A stretch of 64,000 nucleotides of DNA from IMG/VR virus record IMGVR_UViG_3300037963_003785, positions 7,665 to 71,664 of that record. One strand, given 5' to 3'. Numbering within the stretch: the first letter of the stretch is position 1; the number at the start of each line of letters is the position of its first letter. Positions 2,352 through 38,491 of the stretch are shown here, piece after piece. The notes beneath the pieces are model-generated. The model was not told the origin of the DNA, searched no databases, and saw nothing but the letters and a program-made list of their open reading frames with translations. This DNA is from a virus. The position numbers and the translations under genes are program-made.

Positions 2352-2352
2352 A

Positions 2353-4912: not shown

Positions 4913-4939
4913 TGAGATTCTCCATAATTTTACTCATTA

Positions 4940-4947: not shown

Positions 4948-4955
4948 AAAGTAAC

Positions 4956-5189
4956 CTACTTTCTCGTGATGCCAGGACGGCTCACTTGTGATGTTTTAGA
5001 ACTTTTTTTACGGGCATCTTCGTATTGTTTTCTTTCTTCTTCATAAGCAGATGACATTTTCTGAATATAAAACTTACGTAGATATATGGGCATATTATAT
5101 ATCTCTGTAAAATTAAATCCACCCTTTCCGTAAAATATTAGGGTGAAAATCTGGTCATGAATGTAGGGTCTATCAGTTGCCCGAAGGCC
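4956..5189 (-). CDS. Frameshift extension of the gp26-type tail-assembly protein
   Basis: Seventy-seven codons are open in the +1 frame relative to the upstream gene and end at TAG 4956-4958. The product looks like real protein: RPYIHDQIFTLIFYGKGGF, EIYNMPIYLRKFYIQKM, then a charged tail with EEERKQYEDARKK. In this frame an in-frame TAA lies at 5205-5207 and there is no ATG, GTG or TTG start before the conserved part, so independent initiation is unlikely. The upstream gene reads TTC TTT TGG CCT TCG GGC AAC TGA here; a +1 slip of tRNA-Phe on TTTT (5190-5193) joins the frames to give a fusion of about 326 residues. This mirrors the G/GT tail-assembly chaperones of other tailed phages. The exact slip site is inferred. 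Confidence 0.7.
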   Translation of the reverse strand, partial: GLRATDRPYIHDQIFTLIFYGKGGFNFTEIYNMPIYLRKFYIQKMSSAYEEERKQYEDARKKSSKTSQVSRPGITRK

Positions 5190-6182: not shown

Positions 6183-6200
6183 AATTACTCCGTCTTTTAA

Positions 6201-6692
6201 TTAGAATTGTAATATTGCGTAATCGTATTGTATTGTCAAAGTAATGTCAGCTGGGTCTGTTGCATTAGCCCAATCTAAGTCATTGAAATTAGCGTTCTGT
6301 ATATAAGAACCTTTCAATGTCCATTCTTCAACTTTATCACCTACTGGCCCCAATACGTTAAAAGTAATGTCCTTTTTATAAAAATCTGAATATCCGTCTC
6401 TACCAGTAACAGACTCATGTGATAGTCTTACCCATTCCATAACTGCCTGAGCACCACTTGGAACAACAGGATCGTATAGAGAAATCTCAATAGGTTCCCA
6501 TGCACCTTTACCTTTAATATATCTTTTTATATTAATATGGTCTAATTCAATGGTTTCAAAATTAATAGTAGGCCTTGTAGCAGTTTTGATTAGATATGCT
6601 GGTATCCCCTCGATATACATGATGTACCGATTTTTAGTTTTCGGTTCAAACGGTGTGAACATTATTTCTGACGGGTCGAGTAAATCAGGCAT
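6201..6692 (-). CDS. 19: Tail tube protein (gp19-like)
   Basis: A 163-residue homologue of T4 gp19, which stacks as hexameric rings to form the inner tail tube. The length matches T4 gp19 (163 residues). Features of the family seen here are the N-terminal FEPKTKNRYIMYIEGIPAYL, the central VMEWVRLSHESVTGRDGY segment and the C-terminal ADITLTIQYDYAILQF. It follows the sheath gene, separated by a hairpin terminator and an ATATTTAT box, so it probably has its own promoter for high expression. Confidence 0.95.
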   Translation of the reverse strand: MPDLLDPSEIMFTPFEPKTKNRYIMYIEGIPAYLIKTATRPTINFETIELDHINIKRYIKGKGAWEPIEISLYDPVVPSGAQAVMEWVRLSHESVTGRDGYSDFYKKDITFNVLGPVGDKVEEWTLKGSYIQNANFNDLDWANATDPADITLTIQYDYAILQF

Positions 6693-9677: not shown

Positions 9678-10616
9678 CTATTTTTTCAAACAATCACAAT
9701 TTTCTTCTATGTGTTTGACTTTTTCTTTTAATTCTTTTATACCCTCAATCAATAGTGGTATAATCTTATCATACTGAACACCTTTGTATCCACTACCTCT
9801 GTCCTTTACTGCCTCAGGTAAAACTTCTTCTATCTCTTGTGCAAGAACTCCAACATCGTGTCCATGATATATTTGTTGTTTATCATTCCAATCAAACGTG
9901 TATCCACCAATCTTTCCTAATTTATCCAAAGGAAATTTTATTGGTTCTACATTGTCTTTTAACCTTTCATCGGAAGAATTAAATGCTATGATATCACCAC
10001 TTGCTCTAATCGTAGAACCACTTATATCACTATTAAAAAGTGCACTCCCTGCTTCAGACATATCTAAGAGAAGAGCATCTATGGTTGAACCACCATCTTG
10101 TCCTCTAAGTATTATATCTTCATTATTTGCTTCTGATTTAATAATAAAATCTGAAGAATCTCTTTTAAATCTACCAAATGCAGTTCCACCATCTTTTAAT
10201 ATAATATCAGTTCCATCAACATCTATATTTAAATCTCCACCGATATCTAAAGTTAAATCACCACCATCTGAAATCGTAGAACCATTTAAAGTAATATCAT
10301 CTACTGTTAATGTTGTAAGTGTACCTAATGAAGTAACGTTCCCTTGAGCAGCAGTTTCTAAAGTTCCTTTTAATGTTGTTGCTTCTATTTTACCAAACGA
10401 ACCAGTTGAGACTGATGAACCACTAACTGAACCTTCATCGTCCAAACTAACGTTATCTGCTTCTATGACTAAGGGACTAAGACCTGAAATGACAGAAGTT
10501 TCTACTCTGCCAAAAGAACCTGTGGAAACTGATGAACCACTTATGTTTCCATCAGTATTTATTGTTTTTAAGTGAGCATCCGACCCACTTGTGATGACTT
10601 TCTTCCAACTTGGCAT
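9678..10616 (-). CDS. Fibre protein with C-terminal S74 self-cleaving chaperone domain
   Basis: A 312-residue fibre-type protein. It opens with PSWKKVITSGSDAHL, shared with the 480-residue fibre further upstream, and carries two ISGSSVSTGSFG-type modules near residues 25-80, then beta-helix-like repeats. The C-terminal 98 residues are an intramolecular chaperone of endosialidase (peptidase S74): NSSDERLKDNVEPI gives the Ser-Asp and Lys residues of the self-cleavage site, with Ser215 the likely scissile serine, followed by GHDVGVLAQEIEEVLPEAV and a coiled coil. Such domains trimerise the fibre and are then released. It probably forms a trimeric tail or collar fibre; the receptor is unknown. 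Confidence 0.85.
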   Translation of the reverse strand: MPSWKKVITSGSDAHLKTINTDGNISGSSVSTGSFGRVETSVISGLSPLVIEADNVSLDDEGSVSGSSVSTGSFGKIEATTLKGTLETAAQGNVTSLGTLTTLTVDDITLNGSTISDGGDLTLDIGGDLNIDVDGTDIILKDGGTAFGRFKRDSSDFIIKSEANNEDIILRGQDGGSTIDALLLDMSEAGSALFNSDISGSTIRASGDIIAFNSSDERLKDNVEPIKFPLDKLGKIGGYTFDWNDKQQIYHGHDVGVLAQEIEEVLPEAVKDRGSGYKGVQYDKIIPLLIEGIKELKEKVKHIEENCDCLKK

Positions 10617-21295: not shown

Positions 21296-22951
21296 TTACA
21301 CTTTATCAACGTCAGCGACAACGACAGTACCGTAGAACTCAGGTCTTACGATTTTCTTCGCGTAACGAGTCATCACACCTTTACGTGGAGTAAAGTTGGT
21401 TGGGTCGTATACGAGAGGTGTCATAATCAACGGAACATAAGGACTATACACAGCACCAGTTTCAAGGAAGTTACTTCCTCTGAAACCAACAAGAATTACA
21501 TTCTCGAATTGGTATGGGTTCTTGTAAACAGTAAATCTGTTGTTCAAGAGACCTGCTTTTTGTACACCCATTGCATACTGTTGATTGTTGGAATCACCAT
21601 TACTATCAGTTGCATATCCAGGAATAGATTCAAGGATTGTAGCAACTTCAGGACTTACTACGATGAAGTTTGCACCACCACGTAGGGTCTTCTGATGAAT
21701 CGCGTTAGACACAGATTGTATCTTGTTACCAAGTGTTTGGAACCAAGTTCCTTTCACGTAGGCATTAGATTGACCAGATGATTCTACAAAAGAACCACCA
21801 TCCCATTCATATCCAACCTTTGCTGACCATTTTTCTTCTTTAGCGTTAGCATTTAAACGAATCATGTCAAGGATTTCTAAGTCGATTTCCATTGCGATGT
21901 ATTCTGATAACATAGAAGTCAATTCAGCTTCTGCATCAACTGAGTGATAAGCATTAAGGTCTTGAGCTAACTCAGGAGTCCATACTGCTTTTAACTTACG
22001 AGTTTTTGCAACAATTGGAATTGAACGCATCTGAATATCAATTTCAGGTATTCCGACATCTCCCTCACCAGAGAAACCACCATCGGTAGCAGCTGCTGGA
22101 GAAGACTCGAAATCACCACGAGTGATATCAGTTGGTTGTTTATGGTACTTAACGGTGTAGGTTACATCACCTGCAGGGCCGTTAGCGTCAAACGTTGTTG
22201 TAGAGTCTGGTGCCACAATAAACTGAATGTGTGTACCAGCCGCTGGGTTTGAAGTACCATCGGAATCTACCCTCTTAGTGTAAGCAGGATAGTAAGTAGA
22301 AAGTGAACCACTACCAGAACCACTAATTGAAAATGCTCTCGCACCATTCAAATCAGCAGCTGATAATTCACTATGTGCGAATCTTAAGAAACGTAGTGAT
22401 GATAGAGAACCACTCAATGATGGTTCGAAATCAATCATAGCGTTTGTTGCTGATCCAGAAGTCGCTGTAGTTGTAGTTGCACTTACGTCATTTATGGAAT
22501 ATCCGAATTTACCTGCTCCATAAAGACCACCACTTGGGTCACCAGAAGAAGAAGTGTTACCAAACACGTCTGCTCTTTGAGTGTGACCAGGTTGAGCTGA
22601 ACCATACTTGAAATCAAGATAGAAGATTAGTCCAGATGGTAAGTTCATAGGCTGTACAGAAACGAATTCCTGTGAAGCTAATGAACCAAAGATTCTACGA
22701 ATTAATGGAAGTGCAACACCGCTCCACTCTTCAGAGTTAGCAGTTGTAGACACTTTAGAAGCCTCATCAATTAACTGACGAGCCTGATTTTCCAATAGTG
22801 TAGCCATACCATGTTTTCTGTTCTCCTCATCTATACCTTCTAAAAGGCCAGTAGGTTCCCATTTCTCAACAAGTTTCTTGGTCTGTTCACGAAGCTCTCT
22901 TTGCGGATTATATCCATCCATGATATTTTGGATTTCATTATAATTGCTCAT
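21296..22951 (-). CDS. 23: Major capsid protein (gp23-like)
   Basis: A 551-residue homologue of T4 gp23 (521). The opening helices and LVEKWEPTGLLEGI, followed by LPLIRRIFGSL and VSVQPMNLPSGLIFYL, match the T4 pattern (VRRAIPNL, GVQPMNSPTG). In T4 the first 65 residues are removed by the gp21 protease; here LIDE at 60-63 is a good candidate cleavage site. A Gly/Ser/Thr-rich surface insertion spans about residues 115-260. The C-terminus GVMTRYAKKIVRPEFYGTVV is typical. It is preceded by the scaffold gene (19-base gap) and followed by a strong terminator, as expected for the most abundant virion protein. Confidence 0.95.
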   Translation of the reverse strand: MSNYNEIQNIMDGYNPQRELREQTKKLVEKWEPTGLLEGIDEENRKHGMATLLENQARQLIDEASKVSTTANSEEWSGVALPLIRRIFGSLASQEFVSVQPMNLPSGLIFYLDFKYGSAQPGHTQRADVFGNTSSSGDPSGGLYGAGKFGYSINDVSATTTTATSGSATNAMIDFEPSLSGSLSSLRFLRFAHSELSAADLNGARAFSISGSGSGSLSTYYPAYTKRVDSDGTSNPAAGTHIQFIVAPDSTTTFDANGPAGDVTYTVKYHKQPTDITRGDFESSPAAATDGGFSGEGDVGIPEIDIQMRSIPIVAKTRKLKAVWTPELAQDLNAYHSVDAEAELTSMLSEYIAMEIDLEILDMIRLNANAKEEKWSAKVGYEWDGGSFVESSGQSNAYVKGTWFQTLGNKIQSVSNAIHQKTLRGGANFIVVSPEVATILESIPGYATDSNGDSNNQQYAMGVQKAGLLNNRFTVYKNPYQFENVILVGFRGSNFLETGAVYSPYVPLIMTPLVYDPTNFTPRKGVMTRYAKKIVRPEFYGTVVVADVDKV

Positions 22952-24526: not shown

Positions 24527-25225
24527 TTAGTCCTCTTCGTTTTTTCCTTTATAGTTAGCGTCTACATAATTGAAGAATTTTTTCTTTTCCTCATCATCTA
24601 ATTCTGCAGGTGATTTAATACCAAACTTCTTCATAGCCTTTTGAAAGAACTCTTCGTAGTCCCCCTCATCTATATTGTATTCACCAATCTTGGTTTCTTT
24701 TTCTTTTTCAGGTGTCATTGCATCATCTTGGTCATGACCACGAACGTGTCCTTCAGGTATCTCATAATATCTACCAATGATGTGTGCCATATCTTCATAT
24801 ACAGCACTCATTCTTTCTTGTAGTCCTTGTGCCTCCTGTGCAAATTTACCAAATGATTTTGAGAGTGTAGTTAACTCTTTCATGTTACGACCAACAGTTA
24901 CTTTGTCAAACCAATCCTCTGTCTCACGAATTGTATTTTCTTTAACACCATTAGCTAATTCAGATAATGATTTTGCAACATCTCTTAAATTACCCTCTCT
25001 GTAAATTAATTTACCAAGATTGTTAAAGTTGGATAGGTTTTCATTAAAAGCTTTTTTATCAAATTTATCTTCATTTTTATGTCCGTAGATATCTTCTACT
25101 ATATCAGATAAATTAGAATTGTTATTATGTAATGGTGAAGTACCACCGATAGCGGATATACCAACAACACCACCAATTGCTTCGTTTACTAAATCTTTTA
25201 ATTTAATGTTTTTCTTCTTTGACAT
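24527..25225 (-). CDS. Head-module protein, possible prohead core component
   Basis: A 232-residue protein without a recognised enzymatic motif. It opens MSKKKNIKLKDLVNEAIGG, an amphipathic helix with a VNE sequence that also occurs in other head-module proteins here and may be a prohead protease site. The middle is helical (ENLSNFNNLGKLIYREGN, LSKSFGKFAQEAQGLQERM), and the C-terminus has an acidic linker and the compact segment SPAELDDEEKKKFFNYVDAN. It ends flush with bS21. Location between protease and scaffold genes suggests an internal head or core protein. Confidence 0.7.
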   Translation of the reverse strand: MSKKKNIKLKDLVNEAIGGVVGISAIGGTSPLHNNNSNLSDIVEDIYGHKNEDKFDKKAFNENLSNFNNLGKLIYREGNLRDVAKSLSELANGVKENTIRETEDWFDKVTVGRNMKELTTLSKSFGKFAQEAQGLQERMSAVYEDMAHIIGRYYEIPEGHVRGHDQDDAMTPEKEKETKIGEYNIDEGDYEEFFQKAMKKFGIKSPAELDDEEKKKFFNYVDANYKGKNEED

Positions 25226-25244
25226 TGTTAACTCCTGTTCCCTA

Positions 25245-25252
25245 ATAAATAT
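25245..25252 (-). promoter_or_regulatory. ATATTTAT box upstream of 24527-25225
   Basis: Sense strand reads AATTTATATTTATTAGGG, 19 bases before the ATG at 25225. Confidence 0.35.
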
Positions 25253-25255
25253 AAA

Positions 25256-25795
25256 TTATCTACGTTTTTTACCACGAAGATAACTTCTAAATCTTTTTTC
25301 TACTTTTCTCCAAAGGACTTGTAACATCTCTCTAACACCAACACTTGTATCCATAGCTGGGCCAGATTTTATTCCTCTGATTAAATCCATTGCATCGTAT
25401 CTACCACCCTTTACACCATTCATCATAATCTTGATACTTTTTGCAGATGCCTGATTGATAAGTTTCCCCATATCTCTGACATCTTTTTCTACAAACTTTT
25501 GTGCTTCCGTTGAACTAAAAGGAAGTTGTGATGGTGAATTAAGAGGTGCCTCTGTTAATTCAGAATTTAAAATGTAATCACGTGCCTTGTTTAGTCTATC
25601 AGAAGACTCTATTACTTTACCCATCCACCATGTTGGTAACTCTATATCACCAACACTTTCGAGTTTTTGAATAATCTCTTGACAATCCTCTATCGAAGTT
25701 TTTAACTTTCTAATAGCAGACGGAACATCTTCATGTCCATCTTCTGTCAATAAATTTTCTAAGTAAATATCTTTAATCACTTTAATAAAGTCCAA
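25256..25795 (-). CDS. Head-module helical protein
   Basis: A 179-residue protein with the N-terminal helix MDFIKVIKDIYLENLLTEDG, a helical segment KTSIEDCQEIIQKLES, then LPTWWMGKVIESSDRLNKA, a pattern (paired Trp followed by a helix ending in ARDYIL) that I have seen in head-region proteins of marine T4-like phages. The C-terminus is strongly basic (KRFRSYLRGKKRR), which would suit DNA binding inside the head. It overlaps the upstream gene by 19 bases. No catalytic motif; function unknown. Confidence 0.7.
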   Translation of the reverse strand: MDFIKVIKDIYLENLLTEDGHEDVPSAIRKLKTSIEDCQEIIQKLESVGDIELPTWWMGKVIESSDRLNKARDYILNSELTEAPLNSPSQLPFSSTEAQKFVEKDVRDMGKLINQASAKSIKIMMNGVKGGRYDAMDLIRGIKSGPAMDTSVGVREMLQVLWRKVEKRFRSYLRGKKRR

Positions 25796-26232
25796 TCTTG
25801 TGGATTTGAATAACGTGATTTATAATACCATTTCTTTTCTTTCATATTATATATGTAAGCGTATTCCTCACCAGAATTAAAATCAACTGCATCTCTATTC
25901 TTAAAAGTACTCATCGCACTTCCCTTTTCACCTCTGTCTCTTCCGTAGAATACTGTCTCACCATCTTTTCTATTATCAAAGGAATGGTCTTTTCCACCTT
26001 TTATACTTTTGTCTAAAAATGAAATACCTTGTTTTCCAAGTTTCATCAATTGTTTTACGATAGCAGGTTTATTATAAATTTTCTTTAACAATTTACCTGT
26101 GTGTTGTGGATACCCATCATAATGTCCATAGGTGGATTGAATTTTACCATTTGGTTGTTCAATACCAACTAACCAACGAGTTCCTTCTGTAACTAATACA
26201 GATTCTTTTACTAAATTTTTTAATTTAATCAT
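25777..26232 (-). CDS. Head-module hypothetical protein
   Basis: A 151-residue protein. Start chosen at ATG 26232, one base after the upstream stop, giving MIKLKNLVKESVLVTEG; a longer frame to 26313 would overlap the neighbour and lacks support. The N-terminal helix plus ESVLVTEG resembles the start of other head-module proteins here. The rest is basic and aromatic (VGIEQPNGKIQSTYGHYDGY, EEYAYIYNMKEKKWYYKSRY), suggesting a small beta domain. No family recognised. Context suggests an internal head protein. Confidence 0.65.
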   Translation of the reverse strand: MIKLKNLVKESVLVTEGTRWLVGIEQPNGKIQSTYGHYDGYPQHTGKLLKKIYNKPAIVKQLMKLGKQGISFLDKSIKGGKDHSFDNRKDGETVFYGRDRGEKGSAMSTFKNRDAVDFNSGEEYAYIYNMKEKKWYYKSRYSNPQDWTLLK

Positions 26233-26233
26233 T

Positions 26234-28030
26234 TTATCTTCCCATAGTACCAAGACTTGTATACATTCCAGTATGCTTGGTAAACATTTTTTGTAATTGG
26301 TCGTTATAAACACCTTTTACTTTTGATTTAACTTTTAACTTTCCAGCTCTCATCTGAATAAATTCCATATTATATAGGTCTTTACCTCTATCTAAATCTA
26401 TTCTAACATAATTTACACCTTTGGAATTTCTACCAATCTTAAAACTCATTCCTTTAGGCCCCACTGCAAAGTTTTTTGCTCCAGTCATAGCGATAAATTT
26501 ATTACCACCTAATTGTTTTAAGGTTTCACCACCTTGTCTCTTATTCATTGACTCTCTGTAAACTATCTTACCCACTTTAGATTCTATGCCAATGACGTGG
26601 TTTGGATACTTATCTCTCAAATCAGACATTTCTGCTGGTATCTCTTTTAGATTTTTTACAAGTACTCTTTTTACTACCTTATTGTTTTTACTTACAATGA
26701 TGTCCCAAGGCCCAACTTTAGGCCCTTTACGAACAGATTTCATCATATTAGAAGTTTTACTTTCATTTTTCTTTTTTAAAAGGTGAGGCCCAGCTGGTTC
26801 ATCTCCTAATTTACCATCCTCACCATAACCACAAGTTCCTTCATTTTGTGCCCACAATGAATTCATTATCTGTGCTTTCTTTGCTGGATTAGCCTTTTTG
26901 TACATTTTAGAAACTCTACCATACCATTTCATTATACCTTTGGTATCTTTTTTATTGTTACCGTATTTTAAAAGTAACTTTTCAATCTTTTTTTGTTCAG
27001 ATTCTTGTACGGATTCTAACCCTAACATATCTGCAGCAACTACAAAGTTTGTCTTATCACCCTTTGATTTATCCAATTTAATTATTCTTACTCTTTTCAA
27101 ATGTTTCTTTAACAATGTAGCTAATTTTTTTGATTCCTTTTCATCGTCCATGAAAAAACTAAAAGCACCTTTACCTGTAGCCATATCTTTTACCGATTTT
27201 AATTTCTCAGACTTAACAATACTTTTCATTAAAGACTTCATTCTATCATGTACAGAAACTTCGTTTACGGATTCTTTAACTACTTTATACTTACCCTTTA
27301 AAACATTATCTAATTGACTTTGTGAATTTGCAAATACTAAATCAAGTCGTTTAGTAACTGGCATCGTTCTTCCATTTGGAATCTCAGGTACCATTTTAGA
27401 CTTAATAACACCACCGATTGCATCTATGTATTGTCTTGTTCCTCTATCAGCTGTTTTTTTAGAACCTTGTAAACCTTTTTGATTATATCTTTTTGTAATT
27501 TTTAACTTATTTGCTAATTTTTGTGATAAGTTTCTACCAACTTCTGATTTGAATATTTTATCTGCGGTTGTAACAAGTAAACCAGGATGACCAAGATTAC
27601 GTGGATTGAATCGTGGTTGTTTACCAGTAAATTGTCTACCTGTCTTTGAAACTAAAGCAACATAGATATCTTCTGCAATTGTGTATCCTGTAGAATTAGT
27701 TGATATCTTTTTTTCTTTTTCTTTATCTTTTTTACGTTTCTTTTTAGTAGACTGAAATGCATAAGGTGTTTTAGGTGGGCCTTCACCACCATCAAGATTT
27801 CCTGTTACAGAGGCCTCAGGTACCATTTTATACCCTAATACTTCTGCATTCTTTTTTCTTTCTGTTTCAAATTTTCTTTTTGCAGCACCTTTAAGTTCAC
27901 CACCAAAACCCTCTTTTAATTCTTCATCAAGGTCTTCTTCTTTAAATGGAACAAAAGAATGTGCATAAGGATTACTTACGACTCTACTCATTTCACCTAT
28001 ATTCTTTGGTAAGAAATCCTTTAGGTTCAT
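26234..28030 (-). CDS. Large multi-segment basic head-module protein
   Basis: A 598-residue, lysine-rich protein built from several segments: a basic N-terminal region (KKKRKKDKEKEKK near 105), a middle region with KESVNEVSVHDRM, the segment CGYGEDGKLGDEPAGPHLL near 415, a small domain GPWDIIVSKNNKVVKRVLVK near 445, and a C-terminal domain (GGNKFIAMTGAKNF, INYV-like VNYVRIDLDRGKDLYNMEF, then QLQKMFTKHTGMYTSL). The last two look like small phage proteins that are often found alone, so this appears to be a fusion. It lies next to the protease gene and has VNE-type sites, so an internal core role is plausible. Function unknown. Confidence 0.7.
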   Translation of the reverse strand: MNLKDFLPKNIGEMSRVVSNPYAHSFVPFKEEDLDEELKEGFGGELKGAAKRKFETERKKNAEVLGYKMVPEASVTGNLDGGEGPPKTPYAFQSTKKKRKKDKEKEKKISTNSTGYTIAEDIYVALVSKTGRQFTGKQPRFNPRNLGHPGLLVTTADKIFKSEVGRNLSQKLANKLKITKRYNQKGLQGSKKTADRGTRQYIDAIGGVIKSKMVPEIPNGRTMPVTKRLDLVFANSQSQLDNVLKGKYKVVKESVNEVSVHDRMKSLMKSIVKSEKLKSVKDMATGKGAFSFFMDDEKESKKLATLLKKHLKRVRIIKLDKSKGDKTNFVVAADMLGLESVQESEQKKIEKLLLKYGNNKKDTKGIMKWYGRVSKMYKKANPAKKAQIMNSLWAQNEGTCGYGEDGKLGDEPAGPHLLKKKNESKTSNMMKSVRKGPKVGPWDIIVSKNNKVVKRVLVKNLKEIPAEMSDLRDKYPNHVIGIESKVGKIVYRESMNKRQGGETLKQLGGNKFIAMTGAKNFAVGPKGMSFKIGRNSKGVNYVRIDLDRGKDLYNMEFIQMRAGKLKVKSKVKGVYNDQLQKMFTKHTGMYTSLGTMGR

Positions 28031-28641
28031 TAGTCTTCTCTAAGAATAGAATGTATTATGTGTTCTGCCTTACCCCACTTATCATTACTAATACTTTCTT
28101 TTACAACACCCTCATTTACAGGATGTAAAAAAGCACCATGAGTAGACGGATTAGATACAAAGTCAAATGCAATTAACTCAAAGTCATCTCCAACTTTTTG
28201 TGCTCCTTTGTCTGGCCCCTCATTAACAGTTTCAACAGAACCCATACCACGAGAACTGATACCTAATTTAATACCAGCCTTAAATAATTCTTTTAATATG
28301 TTACCTGCAGGTGTACCAACCACTTCTACAGTTCCCAATAAATTGTCACCCTCCCAATGCATTTCTTTGACATTATGAGAAACGTTCTGTAAGTTTACTA
28401 CAGAAGAATCTGGATGGTCTAATTCACCTAAAGCTCTTTTTTGACGAATAAAGTTTTCATCATACTCTTTGGCTTCACGTTGTAAAATTTCTCTTGGATA
28501 CACACGACCATTTTGATTCTTAGCTTCTGCTCTCTGTAACACTCCACGAACAATTAACTTACCATTATTACTTTTCATGGATTCATTAATTTGTTCAGGT
28601 GATACCTCAAATGGTATGTAGTCTACAATTAATTGTTTCAT
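28030..28641 (-). CDS. 21: Prohead core protease (gp21-like serine protease)
   Basis: A 203-residue homologue of T4 gp21, the protease that matures scaffold and capsid proteins inside the prohead. The fold's catalytic residues are visible: His76 in GELDHP and Ser129/Ser130 in LGISSRGMGS; AEAKNQNGRVYPREIL near 38-53 is also conserved. Start chosen at ATG 28641 (MKQLIVDYIP), one base after the upstream stop, because an upstream start would overlap the neighbour with non-conserved residues. T4 gp21 cuts after (L/I)xE-type sites; VNEG occurs twice in this protein itself. It lies between core-protein genes and the portal. Confidence 0.92.
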   Translation of the reverse strand: MKQLIVDYIPFEVSPEQINESMKSNNGKLIVRGVLQRAEAKNQNGRVYPREILQREAKEYDENFIRQKRALGELDHPDSSVVNLQNVSHNVKEMHWEGDNLLGTVEVVGTPAGNILKELFKAGIKLGISSRGMGSVETVNEGPDKGAQKVGDDFELIAFDFVSNPSTHGAFLHPVNEGVVKESISNDKWGKAEHIIHSILRED

Positions 28642-28642
28642 A

Positions 28643-29575
28643 TTATTTAGCCTTCTTTGCAGCTGCCACAGCATCTCTCATAAATGTTGTGACACCTTTT
28701 TTATATTTCTTTTGTAATTCACTTCCTAATTCTTTATTACCTTTTGTTGGGTCAAGATAAAGAGCCTGTACCATTTCATACATTGCTAATCTCAGTCTTG
28801 ATTCTTCTCTCATCAGTACCTTTAACTTAGCTTTGACTTTTTTTACATCATCTGGCCCTTCTGAAATCTTTTGTTGATGTTTTCTCTTAACATCTGCTAG
28901 TGTAGGTAATGGTTCACCAAATTTTCTCTTCTTATCAAAGTTTTCATTTACAGATTCTCTTACACCCTTACCACCCATTTCTTTGTAAACTTTTATTAGA
29001 TTTTTAAGGTGGTCTTCATCTCTAGCATTAGTAACTCTACCTTGTTTCTTTATTCTCTTTTGAAACATTTCTATAGCATCTTTGAGTTTTTTCAATTCTA
29101 CTTTATTAGATAAAGTGCGTTTATATGCCATACCGACATTATCTCTTTCATTTACAGATTCACCAGTATATTGTTTTTTATAAAAGTCTACATCAGCTTT
29201 TGATTGTTTTTTAGGTTTGTCTTTCTTTCTTGAGAGTTTATCCTTGATTCTTTGGAAAAGACTCTTAGATTTTTTATGTAACGGGTGAGATTTGTCCCTT
29301 AGAGGTGTTGAAGCCTTAACACTTTTACCTGTTTTTGGATTTTTCATCTGCATCTTGGTCATTTGCATCACAGTTGCAGCAACAATTGGATTCTCTGATA
29401 GAATACTCTCTAAATTCTTATGTTTTGTAGAAGCATATTTCTTCACGTCTTTCCTTTTCATGTTTTTTGCTACATCTTGAGCTTTTTTAGAAAACTTAGA
29501 TGCTGGTTGTTCCCCTTTTTGTATTGAACGTACAATACCCATAAATTTCTGTTGTTTTTTAGAAACAGATGGCAT
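28643..29575 (-). CDS. Basic head-module protein with DUF3008-like N-terminus
   Basis: A 310-residue, highly basic protein. The first 40 residues (VSKKQQKFMGIVRSIQKGE, then KFSKKAQDVAKNMKRK) match the small DUF3008 family found alone in many bacteria and phages. The rest is lysine-rich helix with the sequences GESVNERD and RESVNENF, candidate protease sites, and a helical C-terminus (MREESRLRLAMYEMVQALY). It overlaps the next gene as TAATG, so translation is coupled. Its charge and place beside the protease suggest a DNA-binding or core protein packaged in the head; this is inference. Confidence 0.7.
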   Translation of the reverse strand: MPSVSKKQQKFMGIVRSIQKGEQPASKFSKKAQDVAKNMKRKDVKKYASTKHKNLESILSENPIVAATVMQMTKMQMKNPKTGKSVKASTPLRDKSHPLHKKSKSLFQRIKDKLSRKKDKPKKQSKADVDFYKKQYTGESVNERDNVGMAYKRTLSNKVELKKLKDAIEMFQKRIKKQGRVTNARDEDHLKNLIKVYKEMGGKGVRESVNENFDKKRKFGEPLPTLADVKRKHQQKISEGPDDVKKVKAKLKVLMREESRLRLAMYEMVQALYLDPTKGNKELGSELQKKYKKGVTTFMRDAVAAAKKAK

Positions 29576-29904
29576 TAATGTAGTTTTCCGACTTTATTAG
29601 CTAACTTAACTAACCTTTCACTAATTTTTGTTAATGCCTTATGTGTATTTTTCCAATATTGGTCACTATTAACACCTAATTCGTTCTTCAACCTGACATT
29701 CATATCAATCAACTTACTGAGTTCGGTTAACTTGGCCCGTACCTCTCTCACCGAGTGACCGATTTTCTGTCTTGGTGTTAATTCTTCATTATTTCTAAAG
29801 TCATGATACCGACCCTCGTTAACAACTTGGTCAATTTCATTAATATTCTTTAGACTATCTTTAATTCTTAGTTTGGACACGTCTAATCTCCTTAATAAGC
29901 TCAT
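29575..29904 (-). CDS. Small helical head-module protein
   Basis: A 109-residue protein of mostly helical character (VREVRAKLTELSKLIDMNVR, KALTKISERLVKLANKVGK), with an N-terminal VVNEGRYHDFRNNEELTP that includes a VNE site. No family is recognised. The ATG at 29904 lies within the end of the upstream gene (44-base overlap) and the stop overlaps the next start by one base. Probably part of the core module with its neighbours. Confidence 0.65.
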   Translation of the reverse strand: MSLLRRLDVSKLRIKDSLKNINEIDQVVNEGRYHDFRNNEELTPRQKIGHSVREVRAKLTELSKLIDMNVRLKNELGVNSDQYWKNTHKALTKISERLVKLANKVGKLH

Positions 29905-30787: not shown

Positions 30788-32647
30788 CTATTCCTTACCT
30801 TTTATTGTACTGACATCATCATGATATTCTTGATTAACTTCATCTGACTCTGTTATTATCTTTACATCACTTTTGTTCATTAATTTTTTCATCTTATCAA
30901 AGTGGGCAAGTGCTAAAGTATTTCCATATTTACGTGAACCACTACCACCTTTTTTCTTATCGTGAGCTCCTAATACGTCTCTACCCCTTACACCACTATC
31001 TTTACCATACTTATTAGGTTCTTTAGGTCTACCAGCTCCCTCTTGTCCACCTTCAGGTGCTCCACCCTCATCATCAAAGACGGAACCACTAACATCATCG
31101 TCCCCACCTTCATCATCAGGACTTTGCATATCACTTGGTGTACCTACCGATTCTCCACTTTGTTTAGGGTCATTACCCTCGTTCTCTATCTGAGAATATC
31201 TAAACTTTTGTTTATAGTCATATACAATTTTTTCTTCTTGGTCTTCTATTTCATCCTTAGTAAAATTATATATGTTCTTATAAATCCAATCACTTGACAT
31301 CAATCCATCTTGTATCATAGAAGAAGCAAGTGATGTCTTGTTGTTCCATAATTCAATTTTTTCTTGTTCATAAATTGTAGATGGATTTGTAAGACTCAAT
31401 TCAAAGTTGACCAACTCTTCATCAGTAAAACCTTGTGCATATAAATGAACAATAGCAATCTTAGTCAACTCACTTACAACAATCCTTTGTATTCTTTCAA
31501 TTGTTCTCGCAAACCTAACGTCTTCAGCAGCTAATGTAGCCTTACTTCCAACTTGTTCTTCATATCCAAGAAAGGCCTTGGGTACTTTAAGAGCAGCTAA
31601 CATTTTATTTCTAAGATATTCAATATCATCAACTGCATCGTATGATAAACTACCAAGAGTTTCTATGTTTGTACCACTATCCCCACCTCGAACTGGCATG
31701 AAGAAGTCTTCTGTTATGTTTTGAATGTTATATTTTAAATTATAATCACCAGTTGTTTCATCTACCAAAGGTGTTTTCTTCATCTTATTAATAATTTGTT
31801 GCATGTAATTATCAACTTCTGCTGGTGGTATGTTTCCAATATCAACTTTGAACACTCTTTTTTCAGGTGCTCTCATAATCCTATGAATCATCATAGCATC
31901 TTCCATAAGAGATAATTGTTTCCAAATCTTTCTAGCAGATTCTATCATTGATTTACCATAAGGAACATAGTTTGAATCTGATAGTAATCTGAAATGTGCC
32001 ATTTGAAAGTTTTCTAATTCTGCACTTTCAGTTTCTTTTCGTGTATGATAAGCAGCCTGTCCTGTATTATCTTGTGTAATTACAAACTTAACTTCGTATG
32101 GATTTTCAGGATTACCACCCTCTGCACGTGCAACAATATAAGGTGTTAATGGTGTTACGTTTGTTACACCATACTTGTCTTGTACATCTAAGTGTAAAAA
32201 GAAATCACCATACTTACACATATTACGAACCCACGGCCATAAATTAAATTCGATGTTTAATATATCATAAAACAAATTATGTAATATCTTTTTAACGTTA
32301 TCATTATCACTTTGAATTTCCAATACTTCTCCGTATTCGTTTTTCATTGTGGTCTCGTCCGAATAGACATCAAGTGCTGATGCTATGATTGGGTCTGAAT
32401 CCATAGTCTCGTAATCTCTGAATAGACCTAACCTCTCAGCCTGTTTATAGGTAGAATCCATTAGACCATATCCTGAACCCTTTGAGTTCTGATACAATCG
32501 TGTGAATCTATCGGTTAAACTTTTCTTATAATATCCTTGTAACTTTTCGGTGTCAGCTATTTTTAATTGGCGACCACCAACATTTCGTACAATAACATTT
32601 GTACTGAATAGTCTTCTTAGTCTTCCAAATAATGTTTTATCTGCCAT
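30788..32647 (-). CDS. 20: Portal protein (gp20-like)
   Basis: A 619-residue homologue of T4 gp20 (524), the dodecameric ring through which DNA enters and leaves the head. Family features include an N-terminal YETMDSDPIIASALDVYSDE, WPWVRNMCKYGDFFLHLDV, SLMEDAMMIHRIMRAPEKRV, GGDSGTNIETLGSL and YLRNKMLAALKVPKAFLGYE. The last 120 residues are an acidic, glycine-rich tail (DDEGGDDDVSG, GGAPEGGQEGAGRP) beyond the T4 core, probably inside the head or on the clip. It directly follows the terminase gene with a nine-base gap. Confidence 0.95.
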   Translation of the reverse strand: MADKTLFGRLRRLFSTNVIVRNVGGRQLKIADTEKLQGYYKKSLTDRFTRLYQNSKGSGYGLMDSTYKQAERLGLFRDYETMDSDPIIASALDVYSDETTMKNEYGEVLEIQSDNDNVKKILHNLFYDILNIEFNLWPWVRNMCKYGDFFLHLDVQDKYGVTNVTPLTPYIVARAEGGNPENPYEVKFVITQDNTGQAAYHTRKETESAELENFQMAHFRLLSDSNYVPYGKSMIESARKIWKQLSLMEDAMMIHRIMRAPEKRVFKVDIGNIPPAEVDNYMQQIINKMKKTPLVDETTGDYNLKYNIQNITEDFFMPVRGGDSGTNIETLGSLSYDAVDDIEYLRNKMLAALKVPKAFLGYEEQVGSKATLAAEDVRFARTIERIQRIVVSELTKIAIVHLYAQGFTDEELVNFELSLTNPSTIYEQEKIELWNNKTSLASSMIQDGLMSSDWIYKNIYNFTKDEIEDQEEKIVYDYKQKFRYSQIENEGNDPKQSGESVGTPSDMQSPDDEGGDDDVSGSVFDDEGGAPEGGQEGAGRPKEPNKYGKDSGVRGRDVLGAHDKKKGGSGSRKYGNTLALAHFDKMKKLMNKSDVKIITESDEVNQEYHDDVSTIKGKE

Positions 32648-32656
32648 TTTATCCTC

Positions 32657-34234
32657 TTACTTTATTAACCAAGTTATATCTTCTTTTTCTTTACCTGTAT
32701 CTACTTGCCATTGTTCTTGGAACATAGATGGTTTAGGTGTATAAATTGGTTGATTTTTATTAAAATATTCCATTGACTTTTTTTGTAGTGTGATTCCTTC
32801 AGCACGTAAACGTAATGCAGTATCACGTATCCATAGACAAATACCAAGTGACATTACTAAATCATCATTGTATCCCTTCATCGCCTCGGCTCTTTGGTTG
32901 TTATATATAAATACAAACAACTCATCCAATAATCTACTTGAATTTATTATAATTGACTTTTCTCTAAAATATTCTTCTATTTTAGCAACTACTAATGGTC
33001 TTGTCTTCATTGTCATAGAGAAACCAGGTACCATGTTCCTTTCTTCCCTATAAATTTTATTTGACAATTGATGTTCAACATCAACATACTTTAAATCTTT
33101 ACTCGTGTAAAATAAATTATCATACCCTCTATCAATAATTTGTTGGATAGAAGCCCAACCAATGTTGTTGTTCTCAATTATTAATAGTGCATTATTATAT
33201 TCAGTTGCAGTATTTAAACATAAGTTTCCAAAATCACGAGTAGAAATTTTTCCTTTATACTCTGCAACTTGTTCAACTGTTTCTGCATCAAAAACATGAA
33301 ATGCAGAAAAGTCTGTTCCGTCCCCTCTTGAAACGTCAGCTGATAAAATATATTGTTTGTCATAGTTTGGATATTTCCAAACCCATAGATTACCATCAAG
33401 TCCTCTTTTTTCGGATGGTTCGTTTACCATATTATTACGACACTCTTCTAAGATAACACCATCAATTACAGTACGACCTGAAGTTATGAAGTCACAATCA
33501 CACTCTTGAGCAGCCATATCAGGCCCCAATAATTTATCTTGTTCAGTTCTCCAATCTTCAGTTCTATCGGGATGTACAGTCCAATGTAGTTTTATCCAAT
33601 TAAACTGATTGGTTCCCTCTTCAGCACCAACCCATGTTTTATGAAACCAATTACCAACACCATTCGGTGTGGATAGTGCGATACAACTACCACCAGTAGA
33701 TAACGTCTGTTGAGCTGCAGTCCATATCTCATCAATCTTATCAATGAAAGCAGCCTCATCAAGTATCAATAACGACAGAGCCTCAGAACGACCAGCATCT
33801 TCTTTACTTGATATTGCCTTTACTTGTGAACCATTTGCATATCTCAGAGACAATTTATTATCTTCAACACATTGTTGTTTAACCCAACTTGGTAAGTTTG
33901 CATGCATCACACGAATTTTTGTTACTAAGTTTTTAGCGGTATCTTGTTTGGTAGCAATCACCAAGACGTTTTTATCTTGATGAAAAGTCATCATCCATAA
34001 AGTGTAACCAGCAGTAAGAGTGGATAAACCCAACTGACGGGCTTTTAATATAATGTTATATCTATGTTCGTGGAAGTCCCTTAAAGTTTTTTCTTGAAAG
34101 TCCCAAGTATGAAAAGGTATTTTACCTTTCATTGGATGTTGTATATAACAATACTTCTTTAAGAAATATACAGGATCCTGAGCACATTTAACATACTCTT
34201 TTTTGATTACTTCTTTTATGGGAACATTAGACAT
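32657..34234 (-). CDS. 17: Large terminase subunit (gp17-like)
   Basis: A 525-residue DNA-packaging motor. ATPase domain: Walker A-type KARQLGLST at 64-72, Walker B LLILDEAAF at 155-163 with Asp159 and catalytic Glu160, and coupling motif IALSTPNG at 185-192. RNase H-like nuclease domain: Asp300 in LSADVSRGDGTDFS, Glu354 in LIIENNN and Asp457/Asp458 in YNDDLVMSL form the metal site. It cleaves concatemeric DNA and pumps it through the portal encoded next. The start overlaps the preceding stop as TAATG. T4 gp17 has 610 residues; the ends are shorter here. No small terminase was recognised upstream. Confidence 0.96.
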   Translation of the reverse strand: MSNVPIKEVIKKEYVKCAQDPVYFLKKYCYIQHPMKGKIPFHTWDFQEKTLRDFHEHRYNIILKARQLGLSTLTAGYTLWMMTFHQDKNVLVIATKQDTAKNLVTKIRVMHANLPSWVKQQCVEDNKLSLRYANGSQVKAISSKEDAGRSEALSLLILDEAAFIDKIDEIWTAAQQTLSTGGSCIALSTPNGVGNWFHKTWVGAEEGTNQFNWIKLHWTVHPDRTEDWRTEQDKLLGPDMAAQECDCDFITSGRTVIDGVILEECRNNMVNEPSEKRGLDGNLWVWKYPNYDKQYILSADVSRGDGTDFSAFHVFDAETVEQVAEYKGKISTRDFGNLCLNTATEYNNALLIIENNNIGWASIQQIIDRGYDNLFYTSKDLKYVDVEHQLSNKIYREERNMVPGFSMTMKTRPLVVAKIEEYFREKSIIINSSRLLDELFVFIYNNQRAEAMKGYNDDLVMSLGICLWIRDTALRLRAEGITLQKKSMEYFNKNQPIYTPKPSMFQEQWQVDTGKEKEDITWLIK

Positions 34235-34970: not shown

Positions 34971-35282
34971 CTATTTGTTTTTAGCAAATTTCTTCAAAAA
35001 ATCCTCTGCAGAAGATATGTCGTCATTATCATATGCCTCTTGCATCTTTTTTGTTTTCTTTTTACTAATAGTTAATTTTCTTTTTAATTTACCAACTTCT
35101 TTTTTGGAAACAGATTTATCTTCTTCCAACTTTTTTATTTCTTTTTCAACTTTCTTTTCTTCTTTTTTGTTTTCCTTAATGACTTTCTCTAACTCCTTAA
35201 CTTCTTTTTTCTTAGAAGCTTGAACAGCAAAAAGTCCACCAACTAAACCAAAAAGTCCAAGTATTAATTTCCATATTTTCAT
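34971..35282 (-). CDS. Membrane-anchored lysine-rich coiled coil, i-spanin-like
   Basis: A 103-residue protein with one N-terminal membrane segment (WKLILGLFGLVGGLFAV, residues 4-20) and then 60 residues of Lys/Glu heptad-like coiled coil (VKELEKVIKENKKEEKKVEK). This is the topology of inner-membrane spanins, which bridge the periplasm at lysis, though the extreme Lys/Glu content is also seen in other phage proteins. The ATG overlaps the upstream stop by four bases (ATGA). No outer-membrane lipoprotein partner was found embedded in it. Confidence 0.6.
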   Translation of the reverse strand: MKIWKLILGLFGLVGGLFAVQASKKKEVKELEKVIKENKKEEKKVEKEIKKLEEDKSVSKKEVGKLKRKLTISKKKTKKMQEAYDNDDISSAEDFLKKFAKNK

Positions 35283-35470
35283 ATTATTTCTTTCATGACC
35301 TCCGAAAATTTAGATTCATTTTTTTTCGTACTTCTAAAGTTAACCACACTTCTACCATTAACAGTAGGCATGCCATGGTCATCTTTACCTATCGACTTAA
35401 CGACAATCTTTTTATTTTTAAATCGGCCAACAAGTATTGTATCACCGACACTTACATCAATTTTTATCAT
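35279..35470 (-). CDS. Small conserved-looking hypothetical protein
   Basis: A 63-residue protein from ATG 35470, preferred because GGAG lies seven bases upstream; the ATG at 35482 has no such site. The sequence IKIDVSVGDTILVGRFKNKK followed by IGKDDHGMPTVNGRSVVNF suggests a small SH3-like beta barrel ending in a helix (SKFSEVMKEII). I have seen this type in marine T4-like phages beside structural genes, without known function. It overlaps both neighbours by 4-14 bases. Confidence 0.7.
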   Translation of the reverse strand: MIKIDVSVGDTILVGRFKNKKIVVKSIGKDDHGMPTVNGRSVVNFRSTKKNESKFSEVMKEII

Positions 35471-36047
35471 GTAGTTCTCCATCTATAAATAGACTATTTA
35501 GTTCTTTCTCGGTTTTTTTCAGTTCATCCGTCCACATCTTTTTAGCATCTTCACCCTTTTCTTTTAAAGCTGTCATATCTGCAGTCCACTCTTCCTTATC
35601 CATAGTCTCTCCATCAGCTGCAGTTTGATTCCAAAATACAGGTAAAGGTGTATTGATAAACCCATCAATCTCTTCTAATGCATTCTTAATAAAACTCACT
35701 TTATTTTTTAATACTTTTTGTTGTGCCCATTCCTCATAAGTACCTTCGATTCTTTTCTTATTTTCAATTTCTACCTGACAATTAAAACAATGTCCCATCA
35801 TTCTCCAAAACTTATCATCGAGTCTACTTTTCATGACTTTTTTACATTCAGGACAAAACCAAGGCATCCTAACCTTTTGCATTATTGAAGTCAATGGACT
35901 TTCTATATCACCTTGTTTTTGTTTCTTACCCTCGTATCCAACCATAACCGTTTTTTGAACTTCTTCACCTCGTAGGATTGAACGAACAGCTTTTAATTGT
36001 TTTGCCCTTTCCTTGATTGATACATTTTCCATTTTATTATCTGACAT
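35457..36047 (-). CDS. Zinc-ribbon protein
   Basis: A 196-residue protein with a zinc ribbon at about residues 65-90: CPEC, then CFNC after 20 residues, in a basic context (PWFCPECKKVMKSRLDDKFW, GHCFNCQVEIENK). The N-terminus is helical and basic (SIKERAKQLKAVRSILRG), and the C-terminal half is acidic and helical. No family name is certain. Located upstream of terminase, where a small terminase or packaging regulator would be expected; a nucleic-acid-binding role is plausible but unproved. Confidence 0.65.
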   Translation of the reverse strand: MSDNKMENVSIKERAKQLKAVRSILRGEEVQKTVMVGYEGKKQKQGDIESPLTSIMQKVRMPWFCPECKKVMKSRLDDKFWRMMGHCFNCQVEIENKKRIEGTYEEWAQQKVLKNKVSFIKNALEEIDGFINTPLPVFWNQTAADGETMDKEEWTADMTALKEKGEDAKKMWTDELKKTEKELNSLFIDGELHDKN

Positions 36048-36058: not shown

Positions 36059-38491
36059 CTAAAACGTTAAAAGACCCATTATTTGATTTACAGGTGCAAA
36101 TGCACCAGTAAATTTATAAGTCTTTCCATTATATTTAAAAACTATTCCCTCTGATGGTACTATTGTTTTCAAACCACCAATTGAATTCAATCTATCTAAC
36201 TGAACTTTTAATGTGTTTAGTTTTTTGACATCTCCCTTTGACCTTAAAGTTTGTACTGCCTTCTGTACACCCTTTCTCATTTTTTGAACCGAGTCATTAG
36301 GATTAGCAGCCATATACCCATCTACATTCTTAAGTATCTCAGCACCAACCTCAAAAAACAATATTTCAAATGGTCTCATGTTTTCTTTTACTTGTTTTGA
36401 ATGATTGTTTTTATCAAAACCCAAAGACCACTCTAAAAACTTTTCGTTCTTTATATCTTTTCTCATCATAGGTATTTTATAAGATTTATCAAAAAACGCC
36501 CATCGTTTTGTTAAATTAATCAAAACTTTTCTTGGTATTTTATATTTGTATTTTTTTGAATTTAGTAATATAAAACTTTCCCAATACTTTTGATGATATA
36601 AACCAAGAGTATCATTATTATTCAATCCATACTTTTTCTGTAATTTACTTAGTCTACCTAAAAACTTTTTTTTCATTTTACCAAAATCTTGATGTTTAGG
36701 AACTTTTAAAAATACAGGAGAAGATATCTTAAACTTCTTTTGTATATTTTGATTACGTTGTTTTACCATACCAGCTAATATTCTACCACTACCTGGTACT
36801 TCTCCTATTGGTGAACCAGATTCATCGTATATTAAAGCACCATGAAATACTATTTCTGCCTTATCGTAGTTAACAACGTTGGATGATTTTGGCCACATTA
36901 CTTCGAGATTCATCCAATGTTGACCCTCGTTAAAAATTTTTGTTCTTTGTTTATCACTAAGTGATTGTAATGCCTTATCTAAATCTTTAGCAGCAAACTC
37001 AAAGGCATCTGATATATCACCTCGGCCAGCAAACTTGGATATTATACCACTAACGTTTAGTGCATTTTGACCAAAGTTTTTTACTTGTCCTTTATTTCTT
37101 GCAAATATTGTTTTTCCATCTTTAAAACTTACGAACAAATTCTGACCATCAAGTTTTTCTGTAACATTATCTTCACGACTTAGTTGTCCACCTAATCCTA
37201 ATTCTATAATCTTTTTTAAATCACCAAATGTTAAATCCTTATCATCAAATGGATGAGACATATGTCCGTATGCTCCACCCTCTACAAGAAGTGACTTTAC
37301 GTCTCTAATATAAGAGTCTTGTAATTTATCAACTGTACTTCCCATGGCTTCATCACCAGGTGCCAAATCAAGATTTTTTAACCTTTGTGTATTTTGGTCA
37401 CCTGTTTGTACACCAGGCAATGCAGGTGATTCTACAGGTACACCATTAACGTCTGTTGCACTATCATTTAAACCTAACCATTTTACTATTTTAAAATCAA
37501 GAGTCTTTGTTACTTGTTCAAGCCATTTTTTATAAGCAGAAACAGGATCGGAACTTGGAAATCTTTCACCATAAGGCCCTGCACCTCTACGTCCATACGC
37601 TACTGTGGGTACTTTCCCCATCCTCGTAGTATAATCAAGACCAGGATCGATTGCACTATCACTTAAAATGTAATGAACCAATTCCCATCCAAGTTCATTA
37701 TACATCGAATCTATCCACAACTTAGATTGTTTTTGATAATCACGAAACCCATCATAAAATGTTGGTGGGCCATCATCAATTGGGAATGCAGAAGAATTTG
37801 ATTCTAATATTTTTTCGATATTATGTTCAACAAGAAATTGTTCAAATACCTCATACAACTTTTTAAATTTATTATTCATCATATTAAAGATACCTTTATC
37901 ATAGTATCCAAATGCTTGTTTAAATAATTTAGGTCTTTCTTTATCATCTATTTTTGGTGAACCAAGTAAATCTCTCATCACAGTTCCACTCACTTCTTTA
38001 CCACCAACTTTTATAGATTGATGAGGTGCAACCATAAAGTATCCATGTTCTTCATACCCTTTTATATTATTCTTATTCTTCTTAAAGTCTTGGAAGTATG
38101 ACAAACCACCACCCTTTTTCTTACCACCTGCTAATCTACCTGCATCTTTTGCACCAAATATATAAACCACTGCAGTAGTTTGTGGATTGTACTTTTTTAA
38201 AACATTTTCTGCTCTTAGTGGAACCTTTTCTTTTATAATTTTACTTTTAGGTATACCCATCTTTGTCATATGACGAACTTTTTCTTTATAGTTCATAGGG
38301 TGTTTGGGTGGTCTTTTAATATCAGACGTAGTTATATACGCATCATCAACTTTTGTCTTTAACCATTCATATGTTTTTTTATGATGTGGGCCAAATGGTT
38401 GATATCTTCCACCATATATACCAACGACCTTTGTTATCTTTTTATTTTCATTAACTATCGAATCGACTAGCCATTTTGATAATTTATTCAT
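36059..38491 (-). CDS. Fusion of NMNAT-like nucleotidyltransferase and ligase-like domain
   Basis: An 810-residue protein. Residues 21-215 are an HxGH-superfamily nucleotidyltransferase: GIYGGRYQPFGPHHKKTYEWL at 24-44 without a full GH second half (PHH in place of HxGH), and VSGTVMR at 167-173 (ISSTxxR-like). Such enzymes adenylylate NMN, pantetheine phosphate or similar. Residues about 400-810 resemble nucleic-acid ligase/nucleotidyltransferases: EKLDGQN at 445-451 supplies candidate AMP-linked Lys446, FARNKG at 463-468, EGIVFK at 781-786 and YKFTG at 792-796. A role in NAD metabolism coupled to nick or RNA repair is possible (inference). It has an ATATTTAT box upstream and follows the glycan cassette. 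Confidence 0.75.
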   Translation of the reverse strand: MNKLSKWLVDSIVNENKKITKVVGIYGGRYQPFGPHHKKTYEWLKTKVDDAYITTSDIKRPPKHPMNYKEKVRHMTKMGIPKSKIIKEKVPLRAENVLKKYNPQTTAVVYIFGAKDAGRLAGGKKKGGGLSYFQDFKKNKNNIKGYEEHGYFMVAPHQSIKVGGKEVSGTVMRDLLGSPKIDDKERPKLFKQAFGYYDKGIFNMMNNKFKKLYEVFEQFLVEHNIEKILESNSSAFPIDDGPPTFYDGFRDYQKQSKLWIDSMYNELGWELVHYILSDSAIDPGLDYTTRMGKVPTVAYGRRGAGPYGERFPSSDPVSAYKKWLEQVTKTLDFKIVKWLGLNDSATDVNGVPVESPALPGVQTGDQNTQRLKNLDLAPGDEAMGSTVDKLQDSYIRDVKSLLVEGGAYGHMSHPFDDKDLTFGDLKKIIELGLGGQLSREDNVTEKLDGQNLFVSFKDGKTIFARNKGQVKNFGQNALNVSGIISKFAGRGDISDAFEFAAKDLDKALQSLSDKQRTKIFNEGQHWMNLEVMWPKSSNVVNYDKAEIVFHGALIYDESGSPIGEVPGSGRILAGMVKQRNQNIQKKFKISSPVFLKVPKHQDFGKMKKKFLGRLSKLQKKYGLNNNDTLGLYHQKYWESFILLNSKKYKYKIPRKVLINLTKRWAFFDKSYKIPMMRKDIKNEKFLEWSLGFDKNNHSKQVKENMRPFEILFFEVGAEILKNVDGYMAANPNDSVQKMRKGVQKAVQTLRSKGDVKKLNTLKVQLDRLNSIGGLKTIVPSEGIVFKYNGKTYKFTGAFAPVNQIMGLLTF

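Follow-up and report, generated by a model that had tools for sequence, protein, structure and literature searches.

Locus and domain composition of the 810-residue chain

We analyzed a 64,000-nucleotide stretch of DNA from a marine T4-like phage (hereafter the window; positions 7,665 to 71,664 of IMG/VR virus record IMGVR_UViG_3300037963_003785, which has 87,553 bases in total) and, within it, a chain of 810 residues encoded beside the head genes (Table 1). An earlier note had described this chain as an NMNAT-like nucleotidyltransferase fused to a ligase-like domain. The open reading frame (ORF) and all motifs quoted for it were found where they had been placed: GRYQPFGPHH (residues 28-37) and SGTVMR (168-173) in the N-terminal domain, and EKLDGQN (445-451, with Lys446), FARNKG (463-468), EGIVFK (781-786) and YKFTG (792-796) in the C-terminal domain. 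Structure prediction of both halves, part of the test by which the note could have been refuted, gave a nucleotidyltransferase fold for each. The analysis below places the chain as a short member of a large, uncharacterized family of phage polyproteins and makes a bifunctional enzyme improbable.

Table 1. Features of the 810-residue chain and of the neighboring head region (window coordinates; a slash marks the junction position; L numbers designate relatives)
Feature	Position	Strand	Basis or remark
810-aa polyprotein: tag, NMNAT module, middle module and RNA-ligase-like module	36059..38491	-	ATG start
N-terminal tag, residues 1-15, ends VNE/N	38447..38491	-	resembles T4 internal-protein capsid-targeting sequence and protease site; tag biology in PMC9026906
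NMNAT module (HIGH-superfamily, NadM-like), residues 16-222	37826..38446	-	Pfam, profile, fold
Linker after LVE/H (222), ending ILE/S (230)	37802..37825	-	in L138, where the middle module stands free, its N-terminal tag is similar
Middle module, residues 231-404, ends LLVE/	37280..37801	-	no known family
RNA-ligase-like covalent nucleotidyltransferase module, residues 405-810, starts GGAYGHM	36062..37279	-	fold, weak Pfam
Lys446, candidate motif I nucleophile	37154..37156	-	conservation
Zinc-ribbon-like protein, 196 aa, next gene	35457..36047	-	look-alike near ligase in L038, L138, L145 (by eye)
Small GDT module (VGDTILxGRFKNKK in relatives), separate gene, stop-to-stop frame	35282..35482	-	
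Terminase large subunit	32657-34234	-	head module beside polyprotein, ORF block 30788..34234
Protease of head maturation (prohead protease), putative processing enzyme	28030..28641	-	phrog_207, E 7.9e-55
Major capsid protein, LIDE/A at residue 63	21296..22951	-	T4 gp23 has FLTE/A at 65

The N-terminal domain has a predicted NMNAT fold closest to NadM and archaeal NMNAT, and the activity we would expect of it is adenylylation of nicotinamide mononucleotide (NMN). VIA-align matched it to NadM (2r5w) at Z 9.2 (3.4 Å over 156 residues) and to 1m8j at Z 8.8 (3.2 Å over 147 residues), with phosphopantetheine adenylyltransferase (PPAT) rows tying with NadM within Z 1. A profile search led to archaeal NMNAT (E 4e-4). 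Pfam CTP_transf_like was found in the window domain at E 0.0012, below the cut-off, and lay above the cut-off in four of five NMNAT-bearing relatives scanned (best 1.6e-10; L013, at 0.0061, was below). SGTxxR is present in 88/88 distinct NMNAT domains. The HxGH site of the same 88 reads GPHH in 50, the canonical HSGH in 33, GLHH in four and GRHH in one; the window carries GPHH, in which the last His is kept and the first is lost.

The full-length model, built on alignment A1 (51 of 69 relatives, near-copies and over-long or short rows left out), was mediocre (predicted local distance difference test, pLDDT, 65), and the ligase domain was therefore folded alone from 84 sequences, which raised the pLDDT to 87.1 with a predicted template modeling score of 0.81. 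The corresponding alignment, A3, comprises the window domain and 83 of 84 non-redundant domains, L004 being left out as a near-copy. The predicted structure confirmed that the C-terminal half is ligase-like and assigned it to the RNA-ligase type. VIA-align gave a ligase of this superfamily in every one of its first 37 rows, and the top 23 are RNA or tRNA ligases (Z 8.9-6.8), headed by the Naegleria RNA ligase 6vt1 (Z 8.9, 4.1 Å over 188 residues) and including T4 Rnl1 (7.9), Trl1 (7.8), the trypanosome editing ligase (7.4) and T4 Rnl2 (7.3). Below them DNA ligases are mixed with archaeal RNA ligases, and the first unrelated fold appears at rank 38 (Z 5.5). Pfam PF09414 (RNA_ligase) is matched by 67 of the 84 members at E ≤0.5, the best at 0.0012.

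Lys446 is the conserved motif I lysine: EKxDGQN occurs in 130/130 motif I regions of distinct relatives. Of 122 full-length ligase domains, all contain EGx[VT]F, 117 contain ARNKG and 112 contain K[FY]TGAF. Domain residues K42, R61, E126, F145, E377 and K389 are invariant in all 84 rows of A3, and we take their order to correspond to ligase motifs I, Ia, III, IIIa, IV and V. In the model an insert of ∼230 residues, mostly helical, lies between motifs IIIa and IV; matches of this insert to ribosomal protein eS6 (best E 0.0023) were taken as compositional. The ligase domain of L115 (2405-3660) has a frame break near residue 129, caused by sequencing error or decay.

A family of modular polyproteins

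Scanning IMG/VR with the window protein gave 223 pattern matches, 221 of which are relatives, and a second scan with the ligase alignment gave at least 535 relatives among the 600 matches listed; the ORF is thus not a chance frame. The best 80 of the 221 were kept as L001-L080, and 80 were kept from the second scan, a few of them already in the first set. At E 0.01 the family is carried by just three of 50,697 annotated phage records, one of which is named (Microcystis phage Mel-JY01). When 24 kb of the window were compared as nucleotides with annotated phages, no match was found, and neither an NCBIfam search nor a PDB sequence search with the single chain brought any gain. Relatives in BFVD come from uncultured phages and are named Cytidyltransferase-like domain-containing protein. 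We found no description of the polyprotein family in the literature (open-access papers, by titles and abstract openings).

NMNAT and ligase form the constant end of the chain, and other modules are shuffled upstream of them, so that a chain has two to about eight modules in all. Frames of the first set extend to ∼1,480 residues. A search of all frames with the recurring pieces gave 36 module orders in the 81 chains that are closed at the N-terminus and have both NMNAT and ligase (near-copies counted). The shuffled modules are a kinase, a CCA/poly(A)-type nucleotidyltransferase, an HD phosphohydrolase, a Cys-hydrolase-like module and several small modules (the names PAP, KIN, HD, NTN, PARB etc. 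were coined in this analysis). The nucleotidyltransferase head matches Pfam PolyA_pol at E 1.2e-29 and a tRNA nucleotidyltransferase PHROG at 8e-59; the HD module gives E 1.8e-7 and hits a PDB poly(A) polymerase at 6e-4. These two parts are set apart by an LxE site (see below) or by another module. The kinase module matches AAA_33/Zeta down to 1e-9 and a polynucleotide kinase PHROG at 1.9e-6, although PHROGs of unknown function score higher; a P-loop motif was seen in 30 of 41 kinase pieces, fragments counted, and a PDB sequence search with this module gave no gain. Kinase and GDT modules also exist as single genes, as GDT does in the window. The middle module has no match in Pfam or PHROGs. 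NTN and PARB, also without a family match, were named by eye and from what we presume of their relationships.

Protease-like sites at the module junctions

The module boundaries are marked by a tripeptide, [LIVM]xE (LxE for short), close to the signature of the T4 prohead protease. It stands at 155 of 189 distinct boundary 15-mers, compared with 11588 of 75462 15-mers (15.4%) in the same proteins; by module, the counts are 37/38 for NMNAT, 20/21 for kinase, 32/46 for ligase, 8/13 for SPS and 15/23 for GDT. This count covers L001-L080 and the window, treats distinct 15-mers rather than independent events, and drops matches that start past profile position 6 or within 13 residues of the frame start. 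Representatives of most of the 14 modules had been cut right after their own LxE, which makes the count circular for those representatives; the other occurrences are independent. A separate count found [LIVM]xE in front of NMNAT at 56 out of 59 starts and in 32 of the 33 different contexts upstream, against a background of 14.1%.

In T4, the cleavage site of gp21 is L/I-X-E, with the cut behind the Glu, and the targeting propeptides of the internal proteins are 10-19 residues long (PMC9026906). The window chain begins with a putative propeptide of 15 residues ending in VNE, and many relatives end theirs in L/I-X-E. The sequences IVNEN and LLVEGG, which the earlier note had likened to sequences of the head proteins, are present, and both turned out to be junction sites of the family; the note's hint that the protein could be packaged is favored by this junction evidence and is probably correct. 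A tally of N-terminal LxE over the window genes rested on guessed start codons and was not used as a statistic. A prohead protease gene was found in 12/12 records searched. The equivalence of LIDE/A in the window capsid protein with FLTE/A in T4 gp23 is by position only, as the two proteins do not align there.

The Cys-hydrolase-like module starts with CIA followed by KKFG, and its Cys lies directly after [IV]xE in 6/6 visible starts in four upstream settings (L026, 2164-3042; L132, L102, L093, L094 and L130); the start of a seventh, in L131, is lost at the contig end. The module has no family match in Pfam, PHROGs or a PDB sequence search (a PHROG at E 0.032 was ignored). It may be an N-terminal-nucleophile hydrolase.

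Exchange of the ligase junction for an internal start

In most members without LxE before the ligase, the upstream sequence reads KELLLM GGAYGHM and encodes a Shine-Dalgarno (SD) sequence followed by an in-frame ATG. The arrangement AAGGAG, nine bases, ATG occurs in 39 of 45 cases; the others have AGGGAG (three), AAGGGG, AGAGAG or AGAGAT (one each). At this site the Lys codon is AAG in 40/40 and the Glu codon GAG in 43/43, across 26 upstream contexts. A plain codon preference was rejected as the explanation, since AAG and GAG are used at 27 and 29% gene-wide. Such an in-gene SD with in-frame ATG upstream of GGAYGHM, instead of a protease site, is seen in L026, L034, L045, L061 and others.

On a tree of 128 ligases, the junction is LxE in 74 (Mel-JY01 included), SD-ATG in 47, split in six and other in one. 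The junction state changes 13 times, and at least nine changes are forced by strong branches for either state (quick method). Two unrelated ways of freeing the ligase N-terminus therefore replace each other, which suggests that release of the ligase is under selection. Recombination at the junction, rather than mutation, could be the route of exchange, because the junction may move with the upstream module.

A split ligase clade

L038-L041 (one sequence), L135, L138, L141, L144 and L145 have a ligase in two parts, with the break between motifs I and Ia. NMNAT or the middle module precedes the larger part, which starts after LITE/, LLTE/, MLNE/ or LLSE/. The small part, of 53-54 residues with the catalytic lysine, is encoded ∼0.6-1.7 kb farther downstream and has a tag and an LxE of its own; it stands alone in L038 (6195-6440) and L145 (3086-3334) and after the middle module in L138 (6577-7329, with 2255-5059). 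All six distinct split members fall into a single clade (support 96). We rejected an intein or an intron as the cause of the L038 split, given that the parts are in reversed order as separate genes with their own tags in six distinct members of one clade; an assembly artifact was rejected on the same evidence. The natural reading is that the parts would reassemble in trans, and loss of function is possible. We found no literature on a split RNA ligase in phage.

Other genes of the head region and the remaining window

The ORF at 30788-32647 (-) is presumably the portal gene, judging by its position. Several small head-region proteins (24527-29904) start with tags ending in xxE, and one of them (26234-28030) has several internal xxE sites; further packaged proteins or polyproteins are likely in the window head region. 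In L138, short genes at 307-669 and 6194-6580 carry MIKLRQLISE or MIKLKEIVSE tags and are candidates for packaged proteins. Adjoining the head genes, the region 38527-63968 contains sugar-nucleotide epimerase-, glycosyltransferase-, carbamoyltransferase- and radical-SAM-like genes, most identified by eye, and an aminotransferase of the DegT family by Pfam, at 215 aa short for the family. The protein at 9678-10616 has a C-terminal stretch that resembles, by eye, a tail-spike intramolecular chaperone.

Discussion

We propose, with a probability of about 0.62, that the chain is a capsid-targeted polyprotein which the prohead protease would cut and whose enzymes would be ejected with the DNA for RNA repair and the supply of nicotinamide adenine dinucleotide (NAD). 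The polyprotein would be made late, together with the head proteins, and its short N-terminal tag would take it into the prohead core. There the prohead protease would cut after [LIV]xE, removing the tag and separating NMNAT, middle module and ligase; in some relatives the ligase would instead be begun at an internal ATG. Once free, the enzymes would be ejected along with the DNA and would be active during the first minutes after infection begins. The ligase would form lysyl-AMP on Lys446 and seal RNA, most likely host tRNA cut by defense nucleases, and in relatives the kinase, HD phosphohydrolase and CCA/poly(A)-type nucleotidyltransferase would heal RNA ends. NMNAT would remake NAD from host NMN. 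Capsid-targeted internal proteins have probably expanded into a protease-cut enzyme polyprotein.

Several points weigh against this proposal. The evidence for cleavage and packaging comes from sequence. P3 at the first site of the window is Val, not L/I, and the NMNAT junctions of L010, L014 and L032, one common sequence, have no motif. The window's own chain has no kinase, HD or CCA module. For the ligase, the first 25 Foldseek rows contain only such ligases, but the best E is 0.02 and all exceed 0.001. The window scores 14.8 bits against PF09414, for which the cut-off is 27, and all family matches are below the curated cut-off; the module is therefore called RNA-ligase-like and not a PF09414 member. 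The family search of 12 records gave a sole match, below the cut-off (E 0.001), at another place in Mel-JY01, and hhalign against the T4 Rnl2 family alignment was not significant (probability 1.6%, p 0.031; the aligned part runs from motif I to III). A full NAD salvage route is doubtful because a NadV gene was found in 0/12 records, most of them fragments, and the known NadM phages are all reported to carry NadV (PMC9503650).

The reading in the earlier note, that one half of a joined enzyme feeds the other, found no support. In this reading the chain stays joined, and NMNAT supplies NAD to, or handles NMN from, an NAD-using ligase; NMNAT and ligase do stand together at the chain end in most relatives, and NAD-dependent ligation frees NMN, which NMNAT could recycle (chemistry in PMC8131947). 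Yet the junctions look made for undoing: of the 128 tree rows, 121 have either LxE (74) or an internal start (47) ahead of the ligase. Some relatives place other modules between the two enzymes (NMNAT-AVR-GDT-LIG, NMNAT-PARB-NTN-LIG), and in the split clade part of the ligase comes from another gene. The fold neighbors of the ligase are RNA ligases, presumably of the ATP type. We consider a truly bifunctional enzyme very unlikely. It is quite unlikely, too, that the chain is an unpackaged cytoplasmic multi-domain enzyme made late, with LxE as a linker preference only. Charged linkers are Glu-rich and packaging is read from sequence features, which would suit such an enzyme, but the motif background in the same proteins is just 14-15%, 32 of 33 upstream contexts converge on the motif before NMNAT, and Cys lies exactly after E in 6/6 cases. 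The position of the gene beside the head genes and the replacement of LxE by SD and ATG, with the selection for release that it suggests, also argue against it.

The substrate of the ligase bears on the proposal as well; if it were DNA, whether at genome ends or at nicks during ejection, this would count against it. DNA ligases and capping enzymes have the same fold, as the lower VIA-align rows show, and RNA ligases may leave A-pp-RNA (PMC8131947), so that the ligase could act on DNA or cap RNA with adenylate rather than repair tRNA. RNA and tRNA ligases nevertheless rank first (top 23 rows, compared with Z ≤6.7 for DNA ligases, the gap at the boundary being small), and the partner modules are RNA-end enzymes; a DNA or capping role is unlikely.

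The proposed capsid-targeted polyprotein can be compared with several known systems. T4 internal proteins and Alt are alike in the short N-terminal tag ending in xxE, the position among head genes and the gp21-type protease, whereas IPI-IPIII have one short propeptide and one mature part (PMC9026906) and the present chains have two to about eight modules, most of which have a separate site. Polyvalent proteins of phages and conjugative elements likewise combine several conflict-related domains in one chain and are probably injected (PMC5512222). The present family has several domains per chain, in its many module orders, and is encoded with virion genes; a role in conflict would be expected. 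Release of polyvalent proteins is ascribed to embedded peptidases (PMC5512222), whereas here it would depend on sites for an outside prohead protease-like enzyme and on internal starts. A word search of that paper found no CCA, NMNAT or HIGH superfamily, and its RNA ligase terms concern other proteins.

Phage NadM/NadR share the NadM-like HIGH nucleotidyltransferase with the window chain, but their fusion partner is Nudix or NR kinase, and NadM occurs with NadV (PMC9503650); here the partner is a ligase and NadV was not found in the 12 records. The phage RNA repair set (Rnl1/Rnl2, polynucleotide kinase, CCA enzyme, HD-like phosphatase) has the same activities as those predicted across the polyprotein family, but as separate genes (PMC7824862) rather than modules of one polyprotein whose ligase carries the ∼230-residue insert. 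The closest annotated protein, WWT39297.1 of Mel-JY01, has NMNAT and ligase in a ∼640-aa chain upstream of the terminase gene (ligase 43% identity); it is annotated just as cytidylyltransferase like protein and is shorter than the window chain between the two domains. No literature was found on this phage.

More broadly, we tentatively suggest that a widespread T4-like phage lineage, mostly environmental contigs, may deliver in its virions a kit of exchangeable modules cut by the head maturation protease. In this lineage ligase release would be selected, with protease sites and internal ribosome-binding sites interchanging, a split RNA ligase with its lysine on a ∼54-residue fragment of another chain would be reassembled in trans, and the protease would unmask the N-terminal Cys of a hydrolase. 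Phage RNA repair is usually seen as a response made after infection starts. If the proposal is true, a capsid-borne kit would act before phage translation, at a time when the cell may be using anticodon nucleases and systems that deplete NAD. It also gives a predictive rule, namely that LxE or SD plus ATG marks the true N-terminus of each module, by which the parts could be cut and expressed correctly. The family would provide a split ligase of natural origin and would let prohead proteases be seen as enzymes that process polyproteins.

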